DNA from: a bacterium
Lineage (GTDB): Bacteria; Chloroflexota; Dormibacteria; Aeolococcales; Bog-877
Direction: 5' to 3'
Assembly (NCBI GenBank): GCA_021785655.1
Contig: JAJYET010000012.1
Coordinates: 1 to 56,591, forward strand
DNA length: 56,591 bases
Part shown: piece by piece, positions 44,058 through 56,474 of the stretch
Layout: the number at the start of each line of letters is the position of its first letter
Numbering within the stretch: the stretch's first letter is position 1
The notes under the pieces: model-generated
The model's database searches: none
Seen by the model: only the letters and a program-made list of their open reading frames with translations
Told to the model about the DNA's origin: nothing
Program-made: the position numbers and the translations under genes

Positions 44058-44819
44058 TCAGCTCAGGGTGGGGCGCCGGGCGCGGATGATCGCCGCCATA
44101 GCCCCGGCATGCACCCGGTGGGTCGGAAGGATCTGCACCTCCACCAGGCCCGCGGCCCCCAGGGCTTCGCGGTACTCGGCCTCGGTGAGCGCCCCGGCCA
44201 CGCACCCGGTCCAGAGGGTCATGTCCTGCCTCGTCGCCTCGTCCATCTCCGGATCAGCCACCACATCGGAGATGGCGAAACGCCCCCCCGGGCGGAGGAC
44301 GCGGAAGGCCTCGGCCAGGACCGCGCGCTTGTCCGCCGCCAGATTGATGACACAGTTGGAGATGACCACGTCCACGCTGCCATCCGCGAGTGGGATGTCC
44401 TCCAGGTACCCCTCCAGGAATTCGGCGTTGTCGCAGCCGGCCCGCCGGGCGTTGGCCCGGGCCAGCTCCAGCATCTCCACGGTCATGTCCAGCCCGATGG
44501 CCCGGCCCGTCGGACCGACCCGGCGGGCCGAGATCAGTACGTCGGCGCCGGCTCCCGACCCCAGGTCGAGCACCGTCTCGCCGGGCCGGAGGTCGGCCAC
44601 CGCAGTGGGAACTCCGCAACCCAGAGATGCGGCGACCGCCGGCCCCACCAGATCAGCATCGGGCTGCCCTCGGTAGAGGTCGGCCCCAAAGACTGCCTCC
44701 GCCCCACCACAGCAGCCCGTGCCACCGGGCCCGCAGCATCCGTCCTTCGTGGAGGCGAACTGCTTCGCCGCCTCCGCGTATCGGTCGCGCACCCGATCAC
44801 GGATTTCGGCCTCCACCAT
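44058..44819 (-). CDS. arsM: Arsenite S-adenosylmethionine methyltransferase
   Basis: 253 residues. ATG at 44819 with a strong GAGGAGG site. SAM motif VLDLGSGAGADVLISARRVG, and the arsenic-binding cysteines in the expected places: CCGPGGTGCCGG near residue 28, SLGCG, ISNCVINL and LWTGCVAGAL. Methylates As(III) to volatile or less toxic forms. No arsR or arsB is adjacent. Confidence 0.92.
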   Translation of the reverse strand: MVEAEIRDRVRDRYAEAAKQFASTKDGCCGPGGTGCCGGAEAVFGADLYRGQPDADLVGPAVAASLGCGVPTAVADLRPGETVLDLGSGAGADVLISARRVGPTGRAIGLDMTVEMLELARANARRAGCDNAEFLEGYLEDIPLADGSVDVVISNCVINLAADKRAVLAEAFRVLRPGGRFAISDVVADPEMDEATRQDMTLWTGCVAGALTEAEYREALGAAGLVEVQILPTHRVHAGAMAAIIRARRPTLS

Positions 44820-46646: not shown

Positions 46647-46703
46647 CAGGTGGCTCAGGGGAGTGCCAGGCGCGGGCCGGCCCTCCCCGCCATCATTCTC
46701 ACC

Positions 46704-47525
46704 ATGCACAGCGGAGCCCCGGCGGCCGGAGAGCTTCGGCGCCTGCTGGGCGCCGAAGAGCGCCAGCGGGTGGCCAGATTCCTGCTCGCCCAGGGGTGGT
46801 CGGGGCTGCACCTGGGTGAGGCGCTGGTCCGCTGGGAGGCATCCTCCTCCGGCCGGCCGCCCCTGTGGGGAGCCCACGGTCCGTCGGGGGAGCTCACCTC
46901 GGTGGCCTTCACCCCCCCGGGCCGATTCCAGCTGCTGGCTCCGCTTGGGGCGGACCGGGAGGGAGGCCGGGCGCTGCTGCTGCGCCTGCTCCCCGAGCTG
47001 GAGCGGGTCTCCGCTCTCGAGGACCACCTCCTCGAGCATGAGCTCGCCGGCTTTGACCGAAGCATCCGGGAGATGACCGTGGCGGCCAGCCTGCTGGCGC
47101 CCGCCCGCCCCCTGCCCGAGGCCCGCCGCGCCCGCCTCCGGGACGCCCCCGAGGTGCACCGCATCTACCAGCACGTCAGCTGGATGCGCCTGGAGAGCGC
47201 CGCCGACTGGCGGGCTCGGCTCCGCCTCGACCCCACCTGGGTGGTGGAGGAGGAGGGCCGGGTGGTGGGGGTGGCGCGCTGGACCAAGCGCTACGGGCGG
47301 GTGGTCGAAGTCGGTGGGGTGGCCACGGACCCGGACCGCCGCCGCCGGGGGGCGGCCACGGCCGCCGTCCTGGCGGCCACCGCACCGGCGCTCTCCGCTG
47401 GCCTCACCCCCCTGCTGTGCTTTCAGGACCCCGCGCTGGCCCCGCTCTACCTCAACCTCGGGTTCGAGCGGGTGGGGAGGGAGCTGGCGTTCCACCGGCC
47501 CCCTCCGCCCGTCCCCGGCCTATGA
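46704..47525 (+). CDS. GNAT-family acetyltransferase-like protein
   Basis: 273 residues from ATG 46704. The N-terminal half (LLGAEERQRVARFLLAQGWS) is family-specific; the C-terminal half is a GNAT fold with VVEEEGRVVGVARWTKRYGR, VGGVATDPDRRRRGAATAAV (acetyl-CoA loop) and LAPLYLNLGFERVG. Resembles the DUF4081/GNAT proteins of high-GC bacteria. Acceptor unknown. It lies divergent from groEL. Confidence 0.85.
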   Translation: MHSGAPAAGELRRLLGAEERQRVARFLLAQGWSGLHLGEALVRWEASSSGRPPLWGAHGPSGELTSVAFTPPGRFQLLAPLGADREGGRALLLRLLPELERVSALEDHLLEHELAGFDRSIREMTVAASLLAPARPLPEARRARLRDAPEVHRIYQHVSWMRLESAADWRARLRLDPTWVVEEEGRVVGVARWTKRYGRVVEVGGVATDPDRRRRGAATAAVLAATAPALSAGLTPLLCFQDPALAPLYLNLGFERVGRELAFHRPPPPVPGL

Positions 47526-47532
47526 TCGGCAG

Positions 47533-48660
47533 ATGGCGGACCTGAAGTCGGCGCTGGCGTGGTCGGCGCTGGTGGCGGGCGCGGCGGTCGCCGCCGAGCG
47601 GGCCGCCAACCATTGGCGCCAGGGGAGCGGTGACGGGGCGCTGGACTGGGAGCTGGTCCGGCGCACCGCCTACTCCAGGGCCGGGGAGGACCGAATGGAC
47701 CTGGTGCGGGAGGTGGGCGAAACCTATCAGCCGCTGGTCCAGGAGCTGGTTCCCCTCCTGGCGCTGGCCTGCGGCACCGGGGCCCAGTCCGCCACCTTCG
47801 GGGCGGTGAGGGTGGTGGGGCGGCGGGGCTTCGTGGACCAGAACCTGGCCATGATGCAGCGGGTCATCGGGCCCTTGGAGCAGATGACCGGCAGCTTCCG
47901 GAGCAGCCCCATGCTCCGGCTGCCGACCAGCCTTTACCTCGGCACCCTTCTCGGCTACATCGGCCGGCGGGTCCTGGGCCAGTACGACCCGGTGCTCAGG
48001 TTCGGCGGGGATGAGCCGGCGTCGCTCCCCTCTCCGGCCCTTCTGATGGTGGAACCCAACGTCCGGGACTTCCAGGAGCGGGCGGGGTTGCCGCTGGACT
48101 CGCTCCGCCGCTGGTTGATGCTGCACGAGCTGACCCACGCCTGGCAGTTCGAGCTCCACCCCTGGCTCGCACCCCACCTCACCTCACTGGTGGCCGAGCT
48201 GGCCCGCCTGCCCCGGGCTCAGGGCCCCAAGGGGCTGGAGGAGATGGTGCAGGCGGCCCGCCAGCTTCGGCCCCAGCTGGCTGCGGTGGGCCGCATCCAG
48301 GCGGTCATGGCCCTCCTGGAGGGCCATGCCAACTACATCATGCGCGAGGTGGGGCAGCGCCATCTCGCCGACTTCGAGACTCTGGATCAGGCCTTCCACC
48401 GCCGCCAGGAGCAGCCCACCACCCTGGAGCGGCTGCTGCTGATCATCTCCGGAGTGGCGCTCAAGCTGCAGCAGTACCAGCAGGGGGAGCGCTTCCTTCG
48501 CCAGATCCGCGAGAGGGGTGGCGAGGAGGCCCTGACCCGGGTCTGGGCTGGCCCTGAGTCGCTGCCCAGCTGGGGAGAGGTCCGTAGGCCCGAGCGCTGG
48601 CTGGAGCGGATGGGCTACCAGCGCACCTGGGCGGGCTGGACTTCGTCGCAGCCCGCCTGA
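47533..48660 (+). CDS. Zinc-dependent metalloprotease, F420-associated (DUF2342) family
   Basis: 375 residues; TATGAT (47521-47526) six bases before the ATG fixes a leaderless start. Family features: LALACGTGAQSATFGAVRVV, GQYDPVLRFGG, ALLMVEPNVRDFQERAGLPL, zincin motif MLHELTHAWQFELHPWL (His198, Glu199, His202) and LLEGHANYIM for the third ligand. Members co-occur with F420 genes in Actinobacteria, but the substrate is unknown and no F420 synthesis gene is nearby. Confidence 0.88.
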   Translation: MADLKSALAWSALVAGAAVAAERAANHWRQGSGDGALDWELVRRTAYSRAGEDRMDLVREVGETYQPLVQELVPLLALACGTGAQSATFGAVRVVGRRGFVDQNLAMMQRVIGPLEQMTGSFRSSPMLRLPTSLYLGTLLGYIGRRVLGQYDPVLRFGGDEPASLPSPALLMVEPNVRDFQERAGLPLDSLRRWLMLHELTHAWQFELHPWLAPHLTSLVAELARLPRAQGPKGLEEMVQAARQLRPQLAAVGRIQAVMALLEGHANYIMREVGQRHLADFETLDQAFHRRQEQPTTLERLLLIISGVALKLQQYQQGERFLRQIRERGGEEALTRVWAGPESLPSWGEVRRPERWLERMGYQRTWAGWTSSQPA

Positions 48661-48782: not shown

Positions 48783-50336
48783 ATGAAGATCTCCTTCCGC
48801 CTCCCCGGCGGCACCTCCCTCCCCGGCGCCCTGCGCCGGCTCCTCGAGCCCCCCGCGGCCCGACAGCTGACGCCGGCACTGGTCCCGGCCGGCGTCCCCG
48901 GGGCCTGGCGCGTGCCGGATCAGCAGACCTTCCACCCGGTTTTCGGGCGCAAGCGCGACGAGAGCCCGGCGCCGGGACCGGACGAGGCCCAGTCGGAATC
49001 CGCCGAGGCCGCCGAAGAAGGCGCCGGACCGATCGGGCCCGGGGCCGACGAGCTGCCGCCCATCCCGTCCGCTCCGGAACCGGGCGAGGCCCGGGAGGAG
49101 GAGCCCGCCGCCGCGGCCACCGAGGAGGCGGCGACGGAGGAGGCGCCGACGGAGCCCGCGGCCGAGGAGGCGGGCTGGTCCTCCTACCAGGAGCCGGTGG
49201 AGCCGTCCCCGTTCTCGTTCGAGGCTGAGCCGGAGCGGCCGGACCTGCCCGCCTGGACGCCCACCCCGCTAGGAGGGTCGGCCTTCCCCGCGTTCCCCAC
49301 CGAGCCTGAGGAGACCCCCGGACCATGGGGGTCGCCGGAGGGCCCAGAGGTGGTGGCGTTCCCAGGCGGCGACTACCAGGAGCCGGCCCCGGAGGCCGCC
49401 TGGCCCGCCGCCGCCCAGGATCCCGTCTGGGGAGCCCAGGGGGGTGACGTGGATGCCACCACCCTGGCTGAGCTACCGGAATCCCAATTCCTGGAGGCGG
49501 CAGCCGAGAGCGCCCCGGAGGAGCCGGAGTCGGGGGACCTTCCCGAGCCCCCGGCTGAGCCCGCTCCAGAGGAGGCGGTGGCCCCGGCCGAGGAGTACAC
49601 CGTGGAGCCCGAGCCGGCGACCTGGGTCGCCGACGAGGCACCGGCGCCGACCTACCTCACATACCCCCCCGAGGAGGCCCCTGCCCACGTGGGGGCCGTG
49701 GCGCTGGTGGAGGACGCCCGCGCCTTCCCCCTCCCTGAGGGCGAGATCCTCTTCCGCAACCTCCGGGCGGGCTTCACCGATCCGGCCCGGCTCCTCCGGC
49801 ACCTGGCCGGGGAGGGGCACACCGGGGTGCTGCACGTGGCCGCCGCGGAGGGCCGCAACACCTACGTGGTACTGGTGGACGGGTACGTGGTGGCGGTCGC
49901 GGGTGACGCCCAGGGCCGGGTCACCACCACCAACCGGGTGGCCTTCCCCAACTTCCCCAACAGCCAGGACGTGCTCAACGTGATCACCTACCCCCGGGAG
50001 ATCGCCCGTGGGTTGGGGCTCCTGCTCCACGCCCCGGTGCACTTCCGGGGGCTGGGGGCGATGTTCGTGAACCTGGACGGGCTGCGCAGCTACCTCAGCA
50101 AGCACTCGGCCTCCGGGGGCATGGTGGTGGCCTCGGACCAGGGCACCGGTGTCGCCCTCTTCGACGACGGGCGGCTGGTGGGTGCCTACACCGGCAACCA
50201 GGCTCCCGACGAGGACCTAACTCCACTGCGCGAGCTGATCAAGGACCTCGACGCCGAGATCGACGTGCGCATGGGCGGCCCCAAGGAGCTGGACCCGATC
50301 CCGCTGGACACCCTGCTGGCCGGCTACCCTCTGTGA
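48783..50336 (+). CDS. Acidic Pro/Glu-rich protein with C-terminal DUF4388-like domain
   Basis: 517 residues from ATG 48783. Residues about 55-320 are an extremely acidic Pro/Glu/Ala-rich disordered linker. The last 190 residues are a folded domain: FRNLRAGFTDPARLLRHLAG, HTGVLHVAAAEGRNTYVVL, VDGYVVAVAGDAQG and a second similar unit (MVVASDQGTGVALFDDGRLV). This resembles the DUF4388/PATAN domains of signalling proteins. Its linker style matches the anti-sigma protein at 36.5 kb. TACACT at 48704-48709 is a candidate -10. First gene of an overlapped operon. Confidence 0.65.
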   Translation: MKISFRLPGGTSLPGALRRLLEPPAARQLTPALVPAGVPGAWRVPDQQTFHPVFGRKRDESPAPGPDEAQSESAEAAEEGAGPIGPGADELPPIPSAPEPGEAREEEPAAAATEEAATEEAPTEPAAEEAGWSSYQEPVEPSPFSFEAEPERPDLPAWTPTPLGGSAFPAFPTEPEETPGPWGSPEGPEVVAFPGGDYQEPAPEAAWPAAAQDPVWGAQGGDVDATTLAELPESQFLEAAAESAPEEPESGDLPEPPAEPAPEEAVAPAEEYTVEPEPATWVADEAPAPTYLTYPPEEAPAHVGAVALVEDARAFPLPEGEILFRNLRAGFTDPARLLRHLAGEGHTGVLHVAAAEGRNTYVVLVDGYVVAVAGDAQGRVTTTNRVAFPNFPNSQDVLNVITYPREIARGLGLLLHAPVHFRGLGAMFVNLDGLRSYLSKHSASGGMVVASDQGTGVALFDDGRLVGAYTGNQAPDEDLTPLRELIKDLDAEIDVRMGGPKELDPIPLDTLLAGYPL

Positions 50337-51124
50337 CCCAGGGGCCGGACCCCGGGCCGGCCGATAGCCGCTCCCAGTTTGCGCGGGTGGCCCAGGCCTA
50401 CCGCAGCAGCACCACGCACGCCGATCCCGTCGCCCTGGCCCGCTTTGTGGAGCTGGCCGAGCTCAGGCCCAACCACCGGGTACTGGACGTGGCCACCGGC
50501 GCCGGCCACGTGGCCCTGGCGGCCGCCCCCCAGGTCCGTGAGGTCGTGGCTCTCGACCTCACGCCGGAGATGCTGCAGCAGGCGCGGGCCCAGGCGGCGG
50601 AGCGTGAGATCCGCAACGTGGAGTTCGTCCTGGGGGACGCCGAGCGGCTCGAGTTCCCCTCCTCCTCCTTCGACCGGGTGCTGGTGCGGTCCGCGCCCCA
50701 CCACTTCCAGCACCTGATCCCCGCCCTGGCGGAGTTCCACCGGGTGCTGGTGCCAGGGGGGGCGCTGGCGGTGAGCGACTGCTCCCCACCGCCGGTGGTC
50801 CGGGACTGGCTGGAGGTGGTGGAGGTGGGCCGCGACCCGTCCCACATCCGCAGCCGGGAGCTGGAGGAGTGGCGGGCGCTGCTGCAGTCGCTGGGATTCA
50901 CCGTGGAGCTGGCGGAGCGGATCGAGCAGGAGAACGACGTTCTGGCCTGGTTCGAGAGAGCTGGCGTGGAGGACCCCACGCGGAGGCGGCTCCTCGACTA
51001 CTACGAGACCGCCCCCCAGGCGGTCCGCGAGCAGCTCAGTCCCCAGTGGCGGGAGGGGCGCTTCTACCACCGGTACTGGCAGGGCCTGCTGCGAGCGCGA
51101 AAGCCGCTGGAGCCGCTCCTCTGA
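50333..51124 (+). CDS. SAM-dependent class I methyltransferase (UbiE-like)
   Basis: 263 residues, GTG overlapping the previous stop as GTGA. Motif I VLDVATGAGHVALAAAPQV, VVALDLTPEMLQQARAQA, GDAERLEFPSSSFDRVLVRS and EFHRVLVPGGALAVSDCSPP give a typical Methyltransf_11 fold. The C-terminal 90 residues contain a substrate lid (REQLSPQWREGRFYHRYW). Acceptor unknown. Confidence 0.88.
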   Translation: MTQGPDPGPADSRSQFARVAQAYRSSTTHADPVALARFVELAELRPNHRVLDVATGAGHVALAAAPQVREVVALDLTPEMLQQARAQAAEREIRNVEFVLGDAERLEFPSSSFDRVLVRSAPHHFQHLIPALAEFHRVLVPGGALAVSDCSPPPVVRDWLEVVEVGRDPSHIRSRELEEWRALLQSLGFTVELAERIEQENDVLAWFERAGVEDPTRRRLLDYYETAPQAVREQLSPQWREGRFYHRYWQGLLRARKPLEPLL

Positions 51125-51145
51125 AGGTGGGTTGGGCTTCCTCTG

Positions 51146-51529
51146 ATGGCTGAGCCGATCGACCTCAGCGGGGTGCACCGGGAGCTGGACCAGCTCAAGC
51201 GCCAGCTCTGCCACTGCCAGCTGCAGGGCGAGTGCCTGGGCTGCAAGGGGGTGGAGATGGTGCGCCAGCAGCTGGAGGCGGTGGTGGCCGCGGCCTCCCA
51301 GCCGGTGCTCCTCCAGGTGGCCCAGGAGGCGGCGGCCAAGGACATGCTCTCCCAGTTCACCCAGATGCAGGAGCGGCTCATGGACGACCCCGCCATCCGC
51401 CAGGCGGCGGACGCCTTCCGGGAGCGGCTGCTGGAGGACCCCGAGGTCCGCAACCTGATGGAGGAGCTGATGAAGCGGCTCGGGCCGGAGGGTCCCGGAG
51501 GGCTGGAGGGCCCGGGGGGGCTCCCGTGA
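51146..51529 (+). CDS. Small cysteine-cluster hypothetical protein
   Basis: 127 residues. CHCQLQGECLGCKG near residue 22 carries four cysteines in a zinc- or cluster-like pattern, followed by a long helix (MLSQFTQMQERLMDDPAIRQ) and a Gly/Pro tail. No family recognised. Its stop overlaps the citE-like start as GTGA. Confidence 0.65.
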   Translation: MAEPIDLSGVHRELDQLKRQLCHCQLQGECLGCKGVEMVRQQLEAVVAAASQPVLLQVAQEAAAKDMLSQFTQMQERLMDDPAIRQAADAFRERLLEDPEVRNLMEELMKRLGPEGPGGLEGPGGLP

Positions 51530-52401
51530 GGCGGCGCTCGGTCCTGGTGCTGCCCGGCGACTCCGAGCGGATGGTGGCCAAGGCGCAGGTGGTGCCGGCA
51601 GACGAGGTCGTCCTGGACCTGGAGGACGCCGTCCCCCCCGACCCGGAGTTGAAGGTGGCGGCCCGGGCGCGGCTCTTGGAGCTGGCCCTCCAACACCCCT
51701 TCGCGGGCCGCCGACTGGCGGTGAGGGTGAACCGGGTCGGCACCCGGGAGGCGCTGGACGACCTACTCGAGCTGGTTCCCGGGCTCGGCCCCCGGCTGGC
51801 GTCGGTGGTGGTGCCCAAGGTCCAGGAACCGTCCGAGGTCACCTTCGTCGACCGGCTGCTGGCGGCGCTGGAGCCCCAGGGGCACCGGGTCGAGATCCAG
51901 ATCCAGATCGAAGACCCGCGCGGGCTGGAGGCGGTGGGCGAGCTGGCGGGGGCCACGCCCCGTCTCTCCGCGCTGATCTTCGGCCCCGGTGACTTCGCCG
52001 CGGCCATGGGCATGCCCACCCTGGGCATCGGGCGGGAGGCCGCCGGCTATCCGGGGGACGTCTGGCACTACCCGCTTTACCGGATCGCGGTCGCGGCCCG
52101 GGCTCGCGGCCTCCAGGTGGTGGACGGGCCGTACTCGGTGCTGGACGACGGGGAGGGGCTGGTCCGCTCCTGCCAACGCGCCGTGGCCCTTGGTGTGGAC
52201 GGCAAGTGGGCGATCCACCCCGGGCAGCTGGAGACGATCAAGCGCGCCTTCACTCCCAGCAGCACGCAGGTGCAGGGTGCCCGGGACGTGCTGGCCCAGC
52301 TGGTCCCCGGGGGGGCCCGGAGGATGGGAGGGGAGATGGTGGACGAGGCCAGCCGGCGGCTGGCGGAGTCCGTCCTCAGAAGGGCCGGGGAGAGCTGGTG
52401 A
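51526..52401 (+). CDS. HpcH/HpaI aldolase/CitE-type CoA-ester lyase
   Basis: 291 residues, GTG start. TIM-barrel lyase: SVLVLPGDSERMVAKAQVVP, ADEVVLDLEDAVPPDPE, LAVRVNRVGTREALDDLLEL, VVVPKVQEPSEV, IQIEDPRGLEAV and LIFGPGDFAAAMGM with the metal-binding Glu and Asp, then KWAIHPGQLETI. Relatives cleave citryl-CoA, malyl-CoA or beta-methylmalyl-CoA; the free substrate is not deducible. GTGA overlap with the next gene. Confidence 0.88.
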   Translation: MRRRSVLVLPGDSERMVAKAQVVPADEVVLDLEDAVPPDPELKVAARARLLELALQHPFAGRRLAVRVNRVGTREALDDLLELVPGLGPRLASVVVPKVQEPSEVTFVDRLLAALEPQGHRVEIQIQIEDPRGLEAVGELAGATPRLSALIFGPGDFAAAMGMPTLGIGREAAGYPGDVWHYPLYRIAVAARARGLQVVDGPYSVLDDGEGLVRSCQRAVALGVDGKWAIHPGQLETIKRAFTPSSTQVQGARDVLAQLVPGGARRMGGEMVDEASRRLAESVLRRAGESW

Positions 52402-53540
52402 GCGGCGAGCGCTCCCAGCTCTCCCGGGAGACCCTGCTGGTCCACGGCGCGAGCCGCTCGGACCAGCGCACCGGGGCCCTGGTCCCGCCGCTGGTGCTCT
52501 CCGCCACCTTCGCCCACGGCAACCAGGAGGGGCTGGCGTACTCCCGGGACCGCAACCCCACCTGGGAGCTGCTCGAGGCCGCCGTGGCCCAGCTGGAGGG
52601 GGCGGCCGCCGCGGTGGCCTTCGCCTCCGGCATGGCCGGGATAGCCGCCGCCCTGGACCTCCTCCCGATGGGGGCGGAGGTGGTGGCGGCCCAGGACGCC
52701 TACACCGGGACCCGGGAGCTGCTCTCCCACCTCAGCTCGACCGGGCGGCTGCGGGTGCGCAAGGTGGACGCCACCGACCCGGCCGCTCTGGAGGAGATCG
52801 GGGGGGCGGCGATGGTCTGGCTGGAGAGCATGGGCAACCCCCTCCTCAGCGTTCCCGACCTCCGGGCCTGGGCCGCGGCCGCCCACCGCCAGGGGGCGAT
52901 CCTGGTGGTGGACAACACGCTGGCCACCCCACTGCTCTGCCGCCCCCTGGAGCTGGGCGCGGACCTGGTGGCCCACTCCGCCTCCAAGCACCTCGGCGGC
53001 CACAGCGACCTCATGCTGGGGGTGGTGGCCGGGCGGGACCTGGAGCTAATTTCGCGGCTGCGCCAGCACCGCACCCGGCAGGGTGGCTGCCCCGGCCAGC
53101 TGGAGGCCTGGCTGGCGCTCCGAGGGATGCGCACCCTGGCGGTCCGGCTCTCCCGCCAGTGCCAGACCGCGAGCTTCCTGGCTGGGGCGCTGACCGGGAC
53201 TCCTCGGGTCAAAGAGGTCCACTATCCCGGCCTGGCCACCCACCCGCAGCACCGGCTGGCGGCGGAGCAGCTGGACCTGGGGTTCGGCGCGCTGCTGGCG
53301 CTGGAGCTGGACGTGGACGCCGAGGCGGCGGAGAGGGTCTGCACCTCCACCAGGATCTGGACCAACGCCACCAGCCTCGGGTCCGTGGAGTCGCTCCTGG
53401 AGCGCCGGGGAAGGTGGGCCGGCGAGGAGTACCTGCCCCAGGGACTGATCCGCCTCTCCTGCGGGATCGAGAACCAGGAGGACTTGCTGGACGACCTCGG
53501 GCGGGCCCTGGCTCAGGTGGGGGCCGGCCCCCTCGCCTGA
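52398..53540 (+). CDS. Cys/Met-metabolism PLP enzyme (cystathionine gamma-synthase/lyase family)
   Basis: 380 residues. LVHGASRSDQRTGALVPPLV, YSRDRNPTWELLEAAVAQLE, FASGMAGIAAALDLL, the PLP lysine in AHSASKHLGGHSDLM, and LIRLSCGIENQEDLLDDLGR. Uses a homoserine ester, cystathionine or methionine; synthase versus lyase cannot be separated safely. Last gene of the operon; overlaps the convergent tetR by 28 bases. Confidence 0.9.
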   Translation: MSGERSQLSRETLLVHGASRSDQRTGALVPPLVLSATFAHGNQEGLAYSRDRNPTWELLEAAVAQLEGAAAAVAFASGMAGIAAALDLLPMGAEVVAAQDAYTGTRELLSHLSSTGRLRVRKVDATDPAALEEIGGAAMVWLESMGNPLLSVPDLRAWAAAAHRQGAILVVDNTLATPLLCRPLELGADLVAHSASKHLGGHSDLMLGVVAGRDLELISRLRQHRTRQGGCPGQLEAWLALRGMRTLAVRLSRQCQTASFLAGALTGTPRVKEVHYPGLATHPQHRLAAEQLDLGFGALLALELDVDAEAAERVCTSTRIWTNATSLGSVESLLERRGRWAGEEYLPQGLIRLSCGIENQEDLLDDLGRALAQVGAGPLA

Positions 53541-54124
53541 AGGAGGCGCCCCAGGAGGTCCAGGATCGCCGCCCGGATCGCGCCGAGGTCTGAGTCCCCG
53601 AGGGCCAGCTCGGTCAGGGCCCCGTCCATGGTGAGGGCGATGGCCCGGGCCAACGGGGCCACCGGCCCCTCGACCTCCCCCTCAGCCTGTCGCTCCTCGA
53701 GGTAGCGGCGGATGAAGGCCACGATGGTGTCCCGGCGGAGCCGCAGAGAGGCCTGGAGCCCGGGGTTCCGCTGGGCCTCGGCCAGGGCCCCCAGGAGAAG
53801 CGCTCCCTCCCCCCCTTGGGCCAGCCGGGAGAGGTAGAAGTCGACGGCGTGCTCCAGGCGGGCCCTCGGGTCGCGGATGGCCGCCATCTCCGCCATCAGC
53901 CCCGCCATCTCGGCCTCCGCCCCCAGGGTGCAGGCCGCGGCGTACAGCTCGGCCTTGCCGCCGAAGTACCGGTAGATCAGACCCACCGAGACCTTCGCTT
54001 CCGCGGCGATCTCCGGCACCGAGGTGGCCTGGGGACCAGAGCGGGAGAAGGCCCGCGCCGCGCCCTCCAGGATGCGACGGCGCATGTGGTCGGCGTGCTC
54101 GCTGACCGCCGGCTGGATGGTCAA
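53513..54124 (-). CDS. TetR-family repressor of the MMPL exporter
   Basis: 203 residues from a TTG with AGAGGAG upstream. HTH: RRRILEGAARAFSRSGPQAT then VPEIAAEAKVSVGLIYRYFG, and GKAELYAA. The ligand domain is helical (LEHAVDFYLSRLAQGGEG). Transcribed divergently from the MMPL gene across a perfect palindrome, the classic repressor/efflux arrangement. Confidence 0.9.
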   Translation of the reverse strand: MTIQPAVSEHADHMRRRILEGAARAFSRSGPQATSVPEIAAEAKVSVGLIYRYFGGKAELYAAACTLGAEAEMAGLMAEMAAIRDPRARLEHAVDFYLSRLAQGGEGALLLGALAEAQRNPGLQASLRLRRDTIVAFIRRYLEERQAEGEVEGPVAPLARAIALTMDGALTELALGDSDLGAIRAAILDLLGRLLQARGPAPT

Positions 54125-54170
54125 GCTGTCTCCTCTGCCCCAGGGCCTGGCCTGCTACCCTGTAAGCGTA

Positions 54171-54192
54171 CCTGAATGAACGTTCATTCAGG
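54171..54192. promoter_or_regulatory. Perfect 22-bp palindromic TetR operator
   Basis: Half-site CCTGAATGAAC followed by its exact reverse complement. The core TGAATGAACG and its mirror is the commonest TetR/AcrR-type operator design. It lies between the divergent tetR (start 54124) and MMPL (start 54216) genes. Confidence 0.85.
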
Positions 54193-54215
54193 ACGGTCCA
54201 CCGGAGGCCGCCACC

Positions 54216-56474
54216 TTGCCCTTCGCCCGCCTCGGGGCCTTCGCCCACCGCCACCGCCGCTCCATCCCGGTGGGGGGGCTGGCCCTGATGATCCTGCTCC
54301 TCGTGCTCTCGGGACCGCTGGGCGGTTCCCTCCAGGCGGGGGGCTTCTCGGTCCCCGGCTCGCAGAGCCAGCGCGCCAGCCAGCTCCTCACCCGCCACTT
54401 CGGTGCCGCGACCACCCAGCTGCTGCTGGTGTACCGCAGCCCCCGCCCCAACGTGACCAGCCCGGGGGTCCAGGCCGAGGTGGGCGCCAGTTTCGCCCGC
54501 CTGGCCCGCCGTCCGGAGGTCGCCTCGGTCCAGACCTACGCCAGCACCAGGCTGCCGATCTTCATCGGGGACCGGGGGCATGAGACCTTCGCGGTGGTCG
54601 ACCTCAAGATGAGCGAGGTGGCGGCCTCGGACCAGCTGGCCAGCCTGGAGTCCTACCTCAGCCGCCCCAAGGGGCTCACCATGTGGGTCACCGGCCCGGC
54701 CCCGATCGACGCCCTCTACAACAGCGCTCTGGAGGCCCAGCTCCGGACCGCCGAGCTGATCGCCCTCCCCGTCTCCCTGCTCCTCCTGCTGCTGGTCTTC
54801 GGCTCGGTCACCGCGGCCCTCCTCCCCCTCCTGATCGCCGGGCTGGCCGTCCCCACCGCCCTCTCGGTGATCCGGTTGATCGCGGCCCACTTCTCGATGT
54901 CCATCTTCGTGACCAACGTGGCCACCATCGTGGGGCTGGGACTGGCCATCGACTACTCCCTCTTCTTCGTCAAGCGCTTCCGCGAGGAGCTGACCCAGAG
55001 CCCCCCCGAGGTGGCGGTGGTGGCGGCCACCGCCAGCGCCGGCAAGGCGGTCGCCATCTCCGGCACCGCCGTGGCGCTGGGCCTGCTCTCCCTGACGCTC
55101 TTCCCGGCGACCGCCCTCGGGAGCATGGGGATCGGTGGGGTGGTGGTGGTCGCCTGCACCCTCCTCTTCGCCCTCACCGTCCTGCCGGCCATCCTCTCCC
55201 TTCTCGGGCACCGGCTCAATTGGCTGACCCTGAGGCGCGGGCTGCGGGGCGCGACCGACCTCACCCATCACCAGTCCAGCTTCTGGGGATGGGCCGGTGA
55301 GCGGGTGATGCGCCACCCGGTGGCGATCGCCCTTCCGGTGGCGGTGGTCCTGCTGGCGGTGGGCACTCCCTTCCTCAGCCTGCGGCTCTCCACCGGGGCC
55401 AGCGTCCAGGAGATCCCCGCCGGGCCGGCCCGCACCGGCTACGCCCAGCTGGTGGACAACTTCCCCCAGGCCGGCGGCGTGAACGACCTCAGCATGGTGG
55501 TGGACTACGGCCACCAGCTCGGTGGGAGGCTGAGCCCGGCGCAGCAGTCCGCCCTCCGCGCCTACCTCGCCAAGGCCGAGCGGCTGCGGGGGGTGCAGGG
55601 GGTGGACGGCGTGCTCTCGCCACCCCCGGGTGTGCCGGCCAGGGTCTATCAGGCGTTGCTCAGCGGGCCGCCGGCGCAGCGTCCGGCGGGGGCCCAGAAA
55701 TACATCGCGGGCTACCTGGCCGGCCCGGTCGCCCAGTTCGAGGTTTCCACCGGATACGGCCCCGACTCCAGCGCGGGGGCCAGGCTGGTGTCCCAGCTGC
55801 GGCAGCTGGCGGCGCCGCCCGGTACCTCCGTCCTGTACGGGGGCGGGGCGGCCGTCTCGGTGGACTTCCTTGCCGCCTTCGCCCACACCATCCCCTGGGC
55901 GGTGGCCATGGTGGTGCTGGCCACCATGGCGGTCCTCTTCCTCACCTTCGGCTCGGTGGTCCTGCCCATCAAGGCCGTGCTGATGAGCCTCATCTCCATC
56001 AGCGCCGCCTTCGGCGCCATGGTCTGGATCTTCCAGGACGGCCATCTCTCCCGGTTGCTGGACTTCACCTCCCCCGGCTCGATCACCGCCACCGACCCGG
56101 TGCTGATGTTCGCCTTCATCTTCGGCCTCTCCATGGACTACGAGGTCTTCCTGCTGACCCGGATTCGAGAGCGCTACCTGGCCACCGGGGACAACCGTCG
56201 AGCGGTCCAGGAGGGGATGGCCTCGACCGGCGGGGTGATCACCTCGGCGGCGCTGATCATGATCGCCGTGTTCGGCGCCTTCGCCCTGGGCCACGTGCTG
56301 GACATCCAGATCCTGGGGCTGGGCATGGCCGTGGCGGTGGCGGTGGACGCCAGCCTGGTGCGGGGGGTGATGGTTCCGGCCCTCATGCGCCTGCTCGGTA
56401 GGGCCAACTGGTGGGCGCCGGCGCCGGCTCAGCGGCTGGTGGCCCGGCTCGGTCTCTACGAGAGCCGTTCCTAG
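54216..56474 (+). CDS. MMPL-family RND exporter
   Basis: 752 residues, TTG start. Twelve helices in two halves, each with a large external loop. TIVGLGLAIDYSLFFVKRFR and MFAFIFGLSMDYEVFLLTRI are the paired proton-relay motifs with conserved Asp-Tyr, and both are intact. Exports lipids, polyketides or drugs using the proton gradient. Controlled by the adjacent TetR. Confidence 0.93.
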   Translation: MPFARLGAFAHRHRRSIPVGGLALMILLLVLSGPLGGSLQAGGFSVPGSQSQRASQLLTRHFGAATTQLLLVYRSPRPNVTSPGVQAEVGASFARLARRPEVASVQTYASTRLPIFIGDRGHETFAVVDLKMSEVAASDQLASLESYLSRPKGLTMWVTGPAPIDALYNSALEAQLRTAELIALPVSLLLLLLVFGSVTAALLPLLIAGLAVPTALSVIRLIAAHFSMSIFVTNVATIVGLGLAIDYSLFFVKRFREELTQSPPEVAVVAATASAGKAVAISGTAVALGLLSLTLFPATALGSMGIGGVVVVACTLLFALTVLPAILSLLGHRLNWLTLRRGLRGATDLTHHQSSFWGWAGERVMRHPVAIALPVAVVLLAVGTPFLSLRLSTGASVQEIPAGPARTGYAQLVDNFPQAGGVNDLSMVVDYGHQLGGRLSPAQQSALRAYLAKAERLRGVQGVDGVLSPPPGVPARVYQALLSGPPAQRPAGAQKYIAGYLAGPVAQFEVSTGYGPDSSAGARLVSQLRQLAAPPGTSVLYGGGAAVSVDFLAAFAHTIPWAVAMVVLATMAVLFLTFGSVVLPIKAVLMSLISISAAFGAMVWIFQDGHLSRLLDFTSPGSITATDPVLMFAFIFGLSMDYEVFLLTRIRERYLATGDNRRAVQEGMASTGGVITSAALIMIAVFGAFALGHVLDIQILGLGMAVAVAVDASLVRGVMVPALMRLLGRANWWAPAPAQRLVARLGLYESRS

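Follow-up and report, generated by a model that had tools for sequence, protein, structure and literature searches.

The locus described here raises the question whether five closely packed genes work together in an uncharacterised sulfur or CoA-ester pathway, as proposed in a preliminary description, or whether a narrower relationship lies behind their order. The window analysed is a stretch of 56,591 nucleotides that is part of a Dormibacteria genome, and the presence of five same-strand open reading frames, designated A to E, was confirmed in it at positions 48783 to 53540. All are on the forward strand: A (48783..50336) encodes 517 aa from its ATG, with an alternative open TTG start 24 bp upstream, and is followed by B (50333..51124, GTG start), C (51146..51529, ATG start, 127 aa), D (51526..52401, GTG start), and E (52398..53540, GTG start). 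The GTGA stop/start overlaps reported previously at 50333, 51526, and 52398 proved exact, namely, A/B at 50333..50336, C/D at 51526..51529, and D/E at 52398..52401, while the fourth junction, B/C, is a gap of 21 bp. The operon is bordered by conserved flanks, which consist of forward-strand genes of a GNAT protein (46650..47525) and a Zincin_2/DUF2342 metallopeptidase (47533..48660) on the left (46650..48660), and, on the right (53513..56474), of a reverse-strand TetR regulator gene (53513..54124), convergent with E, the final 28 bp of which it overlaps, and a forward-strand MMPL transporter gene (54216..56474).

Overlaps of 4 bp are frequent in the window. According to our own gene caller, trained on the window genes, they occur in 8 of 38 co-directional neighbour pairs, or in 5 of 34 outside the operon, and three such junctions of four represent a modest excess (hypergeometric ~0.02, hand calculation). 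In related loci, the sets of which overlap, as the same genome is present more than once across retrieval routes, 13 of the 14 with both A and B have an in-frame start that overlaps the stop by 4 bp at this junction. The same holds for C/D in all 11 loci with D directly after C, where two of the starts are TTG, and for D/E in 9 of 12 loci. A consensus search found neither a sigma-70-type promoter nor a terminator, and for this reason we only infer the co-transcription of A to E.

The domains expected in the products (DUF4388 in A, a class-I SAM-dependent methyltransferase in B, HpcH/HpaI in D, and Cys_Met_Meta_PP in E) were found with Pfam and NCBIfam, and C does contain four cysteines. The DUF4388-containing C-terminal region of A (about residues 305-517) matches PF14332 with 26.2 bits at a gathering threshold of 25, over a part of the profile (8-51 of 122), and is preceded by a Pro/Ala/Glu-rich linker, which is fairly described as acidic (residues 55-304 comprise 24% D+E, 20% P, 19% A, and 2% K+R). 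A has a DUF4388-type paralogue that occurs throughout the class and is represented in the same genome by a distant relative (G000:C64). The B protein is UbiE-like, but its score with TIGR01934 (MenG/UbiE), 73.3 bits, is below the cut-off of 158.35; we rejected it as the missing menaquinone methyltransferase, because another gene of the genome (G000:C6) scores 218.5 and exceeds this cut-off. The E protein matches PF01053 (Cys_Met_Meta_PP) above the cut-off, with 332.5 bits, and is of the cystathionine gamma-lyase/synthase type. Its Lys197, in the motif SASKHLGG, aligns with the lysine in SATKYLNG of PDB enzymes, which we take to be the PLP-binding residue, and E looks like an ordinary transsulfuration enzyme.

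The D protein is a CitE-like or malyl-CoA-lyase-like predicted CoA-ester lyase. It belongs to the HpcH/HpaI superfamily, as it matches PF03328 over the entire profile (1-221 of 221; 110.1 bits, cut-off 25), and its best PDB match is 4l9y (157 bits, residues 6-287). Residues E33, D34, R67, E129, D156, and D273 are kept at the Mg-site and catalytic positions of malyl-CoA lyases in the alignment; in the D family, R67, E129, D156, and D273 occur in all 21 rows, and E33 and D34 in 20, with a gap in the remaining one. The roles described in PMC3832036 are those of a Mg-ligand Glu and Asp, a Glu-Asp pair for waters, a catalytic Arg, and a C-terminal Asp.

The comparison of gene order across four families (f1 to f4) indicates that A to E do not form one fixed set outside f1, the family of the window. 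The common order in f1 is GroEL/GNAT/zincin/A/B/C/D/E/TetR/MMPL; gene order is thus conserved beyond this genome, and the notion of a linked gene set is not refuted. Among the genomes with a detected D, C and D are adjacent and on the same strand in 14 of 17 from f1, where one gene intervenes in two more, and in all 19 from f2, where this adjacency survives and none of the f1 GNAT, zincin, B, E, and TetR genes was seen in the 11 stretches examined. In the tree of D, f1 was not recovered as one group, and support at the f1/f2/f4 split was low. In f4, 10 of the 13 loci have a gene for an AMP-binding acyl-CoA synthetase immediately before C, and in 9 of these 10 the distance between the two is -1 to 11 bp (Pfam was run on one of the synthetases, to which the other nine are 50-74% identical), and D is unlinked to C in all nine genomes in which both were found. 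C of f3 has no constant partner, a co-directional gene being present at most 30 bp upstream in one of seven loci. At thresholds of E ≤ 1e-40 for D and B and E ≤ 1e-60 for gene E, D was not found in 12 of the 31 f2 genomes with C, in all f3 genomes, and in most f4 genomes, and C is still present in them. E adjoining C was not seen outside f1. A cluster label hinted that C of f3, too, might have a synthetase nearby. This was rejected: in local segments, the f3 enzymes share only 27-34% identity with that of f4, they are encoded on the opposite strand several genes away, and the C-terminal domain differs in the f3 enzyme that was scanned.

Gene C was found in 103 of the 110 genomes of the class, at one locus in each (the pair of matches in G342 represents fragments of a single locus), including all 37 high-quality genomes; the seven genomes without it are 59-89% complete. 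Dormibacteria are uncultured, and by their titles all records of them that we met are metagenome-assembled genomes. At E ≤ 0.001, C was detected in none of 345 sampled relatives from the same phylum, by our reading Chloroflexota, outside the class. The wider profile A2 gave matches in 15 of these 345 genomes at E 0.003-0.1 and none at E ≤ 0.001. The two strongest of the 15, which were inspected, are located in a 376-residue frame labelled by us as peptidase-like and in a 43-residue stretch, and both lack the cysteine motif. One more apparent relative (L022) was spurious, being a large frame without this motif. Absence beyond the phylum is weakly tested, since the patterns of the wider contig scan derive from one C protein; they retrieved f1- and f4-type relatives and would miss divergence of the f2/f3 level in other phyla. 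No match was found in plasmids, nor, by two patterns, in viral contigs. The dN/dS of C is about 0.09 in comparison with L006, the lowest among the five genes, and 0.39 in comparison with L008, where that of B is 0.18. Our literature search found no published account of a Dormibacteria cysteine-protein operon, which is not proof that the family is unpublished.

The cysteines of the motif CxCx5CxxC of C (Cys22, Cys24, Cys30, and Cys33; 51209..51244, forward strand) do not vary among the 26 sequences of alignment A2, and exactly four cysteines in this arrangement are present in each of the 24 relatives checked. Searches of Pfam and NCBIfam gave nothing above a curated cut-off, and the family is unnamed in these libraries. 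In the AlphaFold model, which is helical, the cysteine loop is placed between helices 8-21 and 31-51 (block-mean pLDDT of 88-93 for residues 11-40; overall pTM of 0.37). A Foldseek search of PDB with this model gave four matches, none at E ≤ 0.001, and the best score in a second comparison, with VIA-align, was a Z of 5.7 to a designed protein; neither outcome would indicate that the predicted fold is new. Among PDB sequences, profile A1 found nothing at E ≤ 0.001, whereas the matches of profile A2 within this threshold were all to designed helical proteins, four in number (E 1.2e-6 to 1.6e-4); its best natural match was DnaI (E 0.062). The Com_YlbF/YmcA family (PF06133) matches 3 of 26 C members, with a best E of 0.097, and does not appear among the five that were listed for the C protein of the window. 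The invariant cysteines likely form a metal site, one that no solved or modelled fold backs in the PDB fold search at E ≤ 0.001.

Our preferred reading, to which we assign a probability of roughly 0.4, is that the class-wide, single-copy C is the conserved centre of the locus, that D is its most stable partner, and that C binds and adjusts a CoA-thioester enzyme of the same message. The cysteine loop between two helices would hold one Zn2+ ion or a [2Fe-2S] cluster, and C would bind and tune, in a metal- or redox-dependent manner, the co-transcribed enzyme, which would be D in f1 and f2 and the AMP-forming acyl-CoA synthetase in f4. D would cleave a 3-hydroxyacyl-CoA, e.g., malyl- or citramalyl-CoA, and A, B, and E would be later or looser members of the cluster. 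We infer the partnership of C with these enzymes (D and the f4 synthetase) from their positions; as Dormibacteria genomes probably contain many CoA-ester genes, the neighbourhood could also be a coincidence.

A housekeeping role of C independent of the adjacent genes, for instance as a structural zinc or Fe-S component of a central machine, is a serious if tentative alternative, in which the gene order would be synteny inherited within families. It agrees with the near-universal presence of C in the class regardless of its neighbours, with the lack of a constant same-strand neighbour in f3, and with the fact that f1 keeps the order of apparently unrelated flanking genes (GroEL, GNAT, zincin, TetR, and MMPL) as well. 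The C-D adjacency, however, persists in f2 although the remaining neighbours that surround it in f1 are lost there, and the C/D stop/start overlaps are kept in f1. The opposite extreme, a dedicated sulfur or CoA-ester pathway to which each of the five proteins contributes, appears unlikely. Family f1 keeps the order of all five genes with their overlaps, sulfur-relay genes (SQR-like, DsrC, and DsrE2) were seen next to D in a single genome, L055 of f1, and in 13 genomes of f2 the class-wide A-type gene is located downstream of C at a distance of 2-21 kb. Against this, none of A, B, and E is immediately next to C in 31 loci of f2, f3, and f4; in the examined stretches of these loci, B (above 31% identity) and E are absent, and the single A-type gene seen (31% identity) is three genes away from C. 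Moreover, a CoA-transferase or synthetase is absent from the f1 operon, and E is the sole full-length PF01053 gene of the genome, one other being a partial match. The proposal thus stands in part: the order conserved outside this genome and the C-D pair in two families make a functional link that includes the CoA-ester lyase plausible, but a dedicated five-gene set is unsupported, and the locus is probably a translationally coupled cluster of one Dormibacteria family.

That C is a client-binding, co-chaperone-like factor seems very improbable. Its C-terminal half has DP-type stretches akin to those of the STI1/HOP DP domain (PF17830), a profile matched by 12 of the 26 members (E 1.4e-5 at best), and GroEL is encoded five genes away in f1. 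Nevertheless, the six members with listed scores are all below the cut-off of 29.1 bits (15.5 for C itself and 25.3 for the best relative), the best two matches span 18 residues, the f3 members end shortly past the first DP, GroEL near C was seen in f1 only among the examined f1 to f4 loci, and the helical part matches designed proteins too. A bolder extension of the preferred reading, which we regard as rather doubtful, makes C the founder of a new family that defines the class. Its members would be small redox or metal switches, carrying [2Fe-2S] or Zn in a cysteine loop that is a rearranged form of the SoxR one. Produced together with CoA-thioester enzymes, namely, a lyase of the malyl-CoA type in two families and an acyl-CoA synthetase in a third, they would control the activity of these enzymes and so tie acyl-CoA metabolism of Dormibacteria to the redox or metal state.

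The occurrence of C in all 37 high-quality genomes of the class, together with the lack of a match at E ≤ 0.001 in the 345 relatives sampled from the phylum, makes it a candidate marker of Dormibacteria and a candidate core function of this lineage, and the C-D and synthetase-C pairs are concrete partners that can be tested.

E resembles cystathionine gamma-lyases and gamma-synthases (PRK07582, 353.3 bits; PDB 6k1l, 276 bits), with the PLP lysine in SASK, although it is below the PRK07582 equivalog cut-off of 440. D shares the six aligned active-site residues named in PMC3832036 with malyl-CoA/beta-methylmalyl-CoA and citramalyl-CoA lyases, but scores under the NCBIfam equivalog cut-offs of RipC (153.9 of 375), citE (98 of 443.4), and malyl-CoA lyase (62.1 of 500); CitD/CitF or a CoA-transferase domain is absent among the operon genes. 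No MerR DNA-binding domain was found in C (E ≤ 1) or in five relatives (E ≤ 0.1), nor is one among the 25 listed of 41 families for the 26 members. In SoxR, the [2Fe-2S] loop motif given in PMC8063818 is CX2CXCX5C, located at a helix end, and CxCx5CxxC of C does not conform to it. Both proteins have a CxCx5C block of equal spacing at the end of a helix, while the remaining cysteine is three residues after this block in C and three residues before it in SoxR, the likeness being one of spacing only.

The operon at positions 48783-53540 of the forward strand comprises genes A (48783-50336), B (50333-51124), C (51146-51529), D (51526-52401) and E (52398-53540), and these five reading frames, as well as the three GTGA overlaps between them, lie exactly where the preliminary description had placed them. 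Domain-family searches agree with its assignment of a DUF4388 domain to A, a SAM methyltransferase to B, an HpcH/HpaI lyase to D and a Cys/Met PLP enzyme to E, and detected no domain above cut-off in the 127-aa, four-cysteine product of gene C. Genes B and C are separated by a 21-bp gap. Since four-bp overlaps are common in the window (8 of 38 co-directional pairs, and 5 of 34 without the operon), three of four in the operon represent only a modest excess.

The gene cluster is genuine, with conservation at the family level, and its members are separable. The gene-order conservation proposed earlier as a check was borne out, as the order is common to loci of the window's family (f1) beyond the window. 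Where the contig is long enough, f1 loci show the order GroEL (-), GNAT, zincin, A, B, C, D, E, TetR (-) and MMPL, with the exceptions of L016 and L055; this sharing of the flanks indicates that the conserved block exceeds five genes. Among f1 genomes with D, C adjoins D in 14 of 17, is separated from it by one gene in two and lies on another contig in one. The intervening gene of L016, on the opposite strand, appears on reading to be endoglucanase-like. In L055 (9452-13844, genome G386) D is flanked by two sulfide:quinone oxidoreductase-like genes, one of them between C and D and the second exceeding the NCBIfam SQR III cut-off, and the sulfur-relay genes DsrC and DsrE2 come next; this region is possibly a sulfide-oxidation island.

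In the conserved left flank, positions 47533-48660 encode a Zincin_2/DUF2342 metallopeptidase, which with 232 bits exceeds the cut-off of TIGR03883, the 'coenzyme F420 biosynthesis associated' subfamily. On the right, the gene of a TetR regulator (53513-54124) diverges from that of an MMPL-family transporter (54216-56474), and the two, which accompany the operon through much of f1, are likely a regulator/transporter pair. The minus strand also carries a short arsenite-methyltransferase-like gene (44058-44600; 180 aa), whose match to the ArsM profile lacks the N-terminal portion and scores 250.4 bits vs. a cut-off of 263, and, near GroEL, a SAM hydroxide adenosyltransferase-type gene (SAM_HAT, PF01887; 43167-43997).

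Outside f1, the surroundings of C are different in each of the three other families of the class. The GNAT, zincin, B, E, TetR and GroEL genes of f1 were found in none of the 11 f2 and 13 f4 stretches around C, nor in the seven f3 stretches, except for a B-like methyltransferase (30%) in L085; an A-type gene occurs in one f2 stretch (L059) and an MMPL gene in another (L065). In f2, every one of the 19 genomes where D was found has it next to C, and the remaining 12 f2 genomes having C gave no D match at E<=1e-40. Close to C, 8 of 11 f2 loci carry DNA-methylase-like genes of one cluster (e.g., L067:6875-7639; PF01555 in the one scanned), and in L057 and L059 such a gene is immediately next to C, on the same strand. 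In f4, D is unlinked to C in 9/9 genomes with both (two further genomes have D, and C was not found there), and in 10 of 13 loci the gene directly upstream of C encodes an AMP-binding acyl-CoA synthetase, the gap being -1 to 11 bp in nine of these loci. At the seven f3 loci, the gene after C is convergent with it and belongs to a single cluster (the member that was scanned is a sortase), and only one locus has a co-directional neighbour no more than 30 bp upstream of C.

The C-terminal region of A has a second copy in the same genome (23-24% identical) and relatives in at least 106 of 110 class genomes. At 13 loci around A-type genes other than A, the next downstream gene is the same in nine and, as judged by reading, may encode a beta-propeller-like protein; the genes upstream would mostly be dihydropteroate-synthase-like and folK-like. 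Because these A-type genes share conserved neighbours of their own, A is most readily viewed as a duplicate specific to its family. The block of the DUF4388-type paralogue and the beta-propeller-like secreted protein is conserved in L100:6116-10831 (contig C64 of the window's genome) and the f2-f4 loci L088-L099, and in many f2 genomes is located 2-21 kb downstream of C. Among the matches listed for f2, 13 of the 30 genomes with an A-type gene have one 2-21 kb downstream of C, sharing its contig and strand, which counts against full separability; in one genome it is 29 kb distant and on the opposite strand, and in 16 the matches are on other contigs. At E<=1e-40, B has relatives in 18/18 genomes of f1 and 35/42 of f4, and the genomes of f2 and f3 gave none. 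At three f4 loci B seems to adjoin complex I-like, second methyltransferase-like and malate-dehydrogenase-like genes. Assignment of B as MenG was rejected. Besides E, no full-length PF01053 gene was found in the genome (one other passes the cut-off with a partial profile; 40.6 bits, 57-207 of 381); E has relatives at E<=1e-60 in 85 of 110 class genomes, and none in 31 f2, f3 and f4 stretches around C.

The best solved relative of D is the malyl-CoA lyase of R. sphaeroides. The active-site residues named in PMC3832036 are the ligands of Mg, a pair that binds water, the catalytic Arg and an Asp of the lid. Their counterparts in D are E129 and D156, E33 and D34, R67, and D273, respectively; in an alignment of D relatives from f1, f2 and f4 with the own-genome paralogue, four of these residues are kept in 21/21 rows and two in 20/21 (one gap). 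Human and mycobacterial relatives cleave citramalyl-CoA (PMC6689899). D scores below the named NCBIfam equivalog cut-offs, and therefore no substrate is assigned. The genome also encodes another, more distantly related member of this lyase family, which sits with genes that read as a CaiB-type transferase and as HMG-CoA-lyase-like.

The link that best survives rearrangement is that of C with a CoA-thioester enzyme. Its persistence supports, without proving, the reading that C is a partner protein for such enzymes and is itself metal- or redox-bearing. Nearly as likely, C is a core protein in its own right that synteny has carried along. It is present in 103 of 110 class genomes (f1 18/18, f2 31/32, f3 15/18, f4 39/42) and in all 37 high-quality ones. 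In a 400-genome phylum sample, 53 matches at E<=0.001 all fell among the 55 class members, with none in the 345 other genomes; a wider 26-row profile at E<=0.1 gave weak matches in 15 genomes outside the class, of which the two strongest, on inspection, were not relatives. This sampling treats Dormibacteria as a class inside a larger phylum, presumably Chloroflexota, and NCBI places class Candidatus Dormibacteria in the phylum Candidatus Dormiibacterota. A scan of genome contigs with C gave 21 loci, one spurious and 20 relatives, titled Candidatus Dormiibacterota/Dormiibacter (11), 'bacterium' (7) or 'Chloroflexi bacterium' (2). Relative to L006, dN/dS rises from 0.09 (C) through 0.11 (B), 0.17 (E) and 0.24 (D) to 0.25 (A); the values relative to L008 (C 0.39, B 0.18) weaken the case for C as the gene under the strongest constraint.

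For C as a metal- or redox-bearing partner, the cysteine motif CxCx5CxxC suggests binding of Zn or [2Fe-2S]. All four cysteines are invariant across the 26 rows, as are M1, D6, S8, D15, G35, R40, Q42, V46, A49, Q52-P53, L55, Q57-V58, Q60-E61, L78 and D81-P82, and each of 24 relatives checked has the motif and exactly four cysteines. The protein is 103-104 residues long in f3, 118-140 in the listed members of f1 and f4, and 139-191 in f2, leaving out L061, whose frame enters D across masked bases. In the predicted structure, which has five helices (pLDDT 74.6, pTM 0.37), the cysteine loop lies between helices one and two; confidence is locally good at this loop and poor for the global arrangement. 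The nearest published spacing that we found is CX2CXCX5C of SoxR (PMC8063818), which is a likeness and not a sign of kinship.
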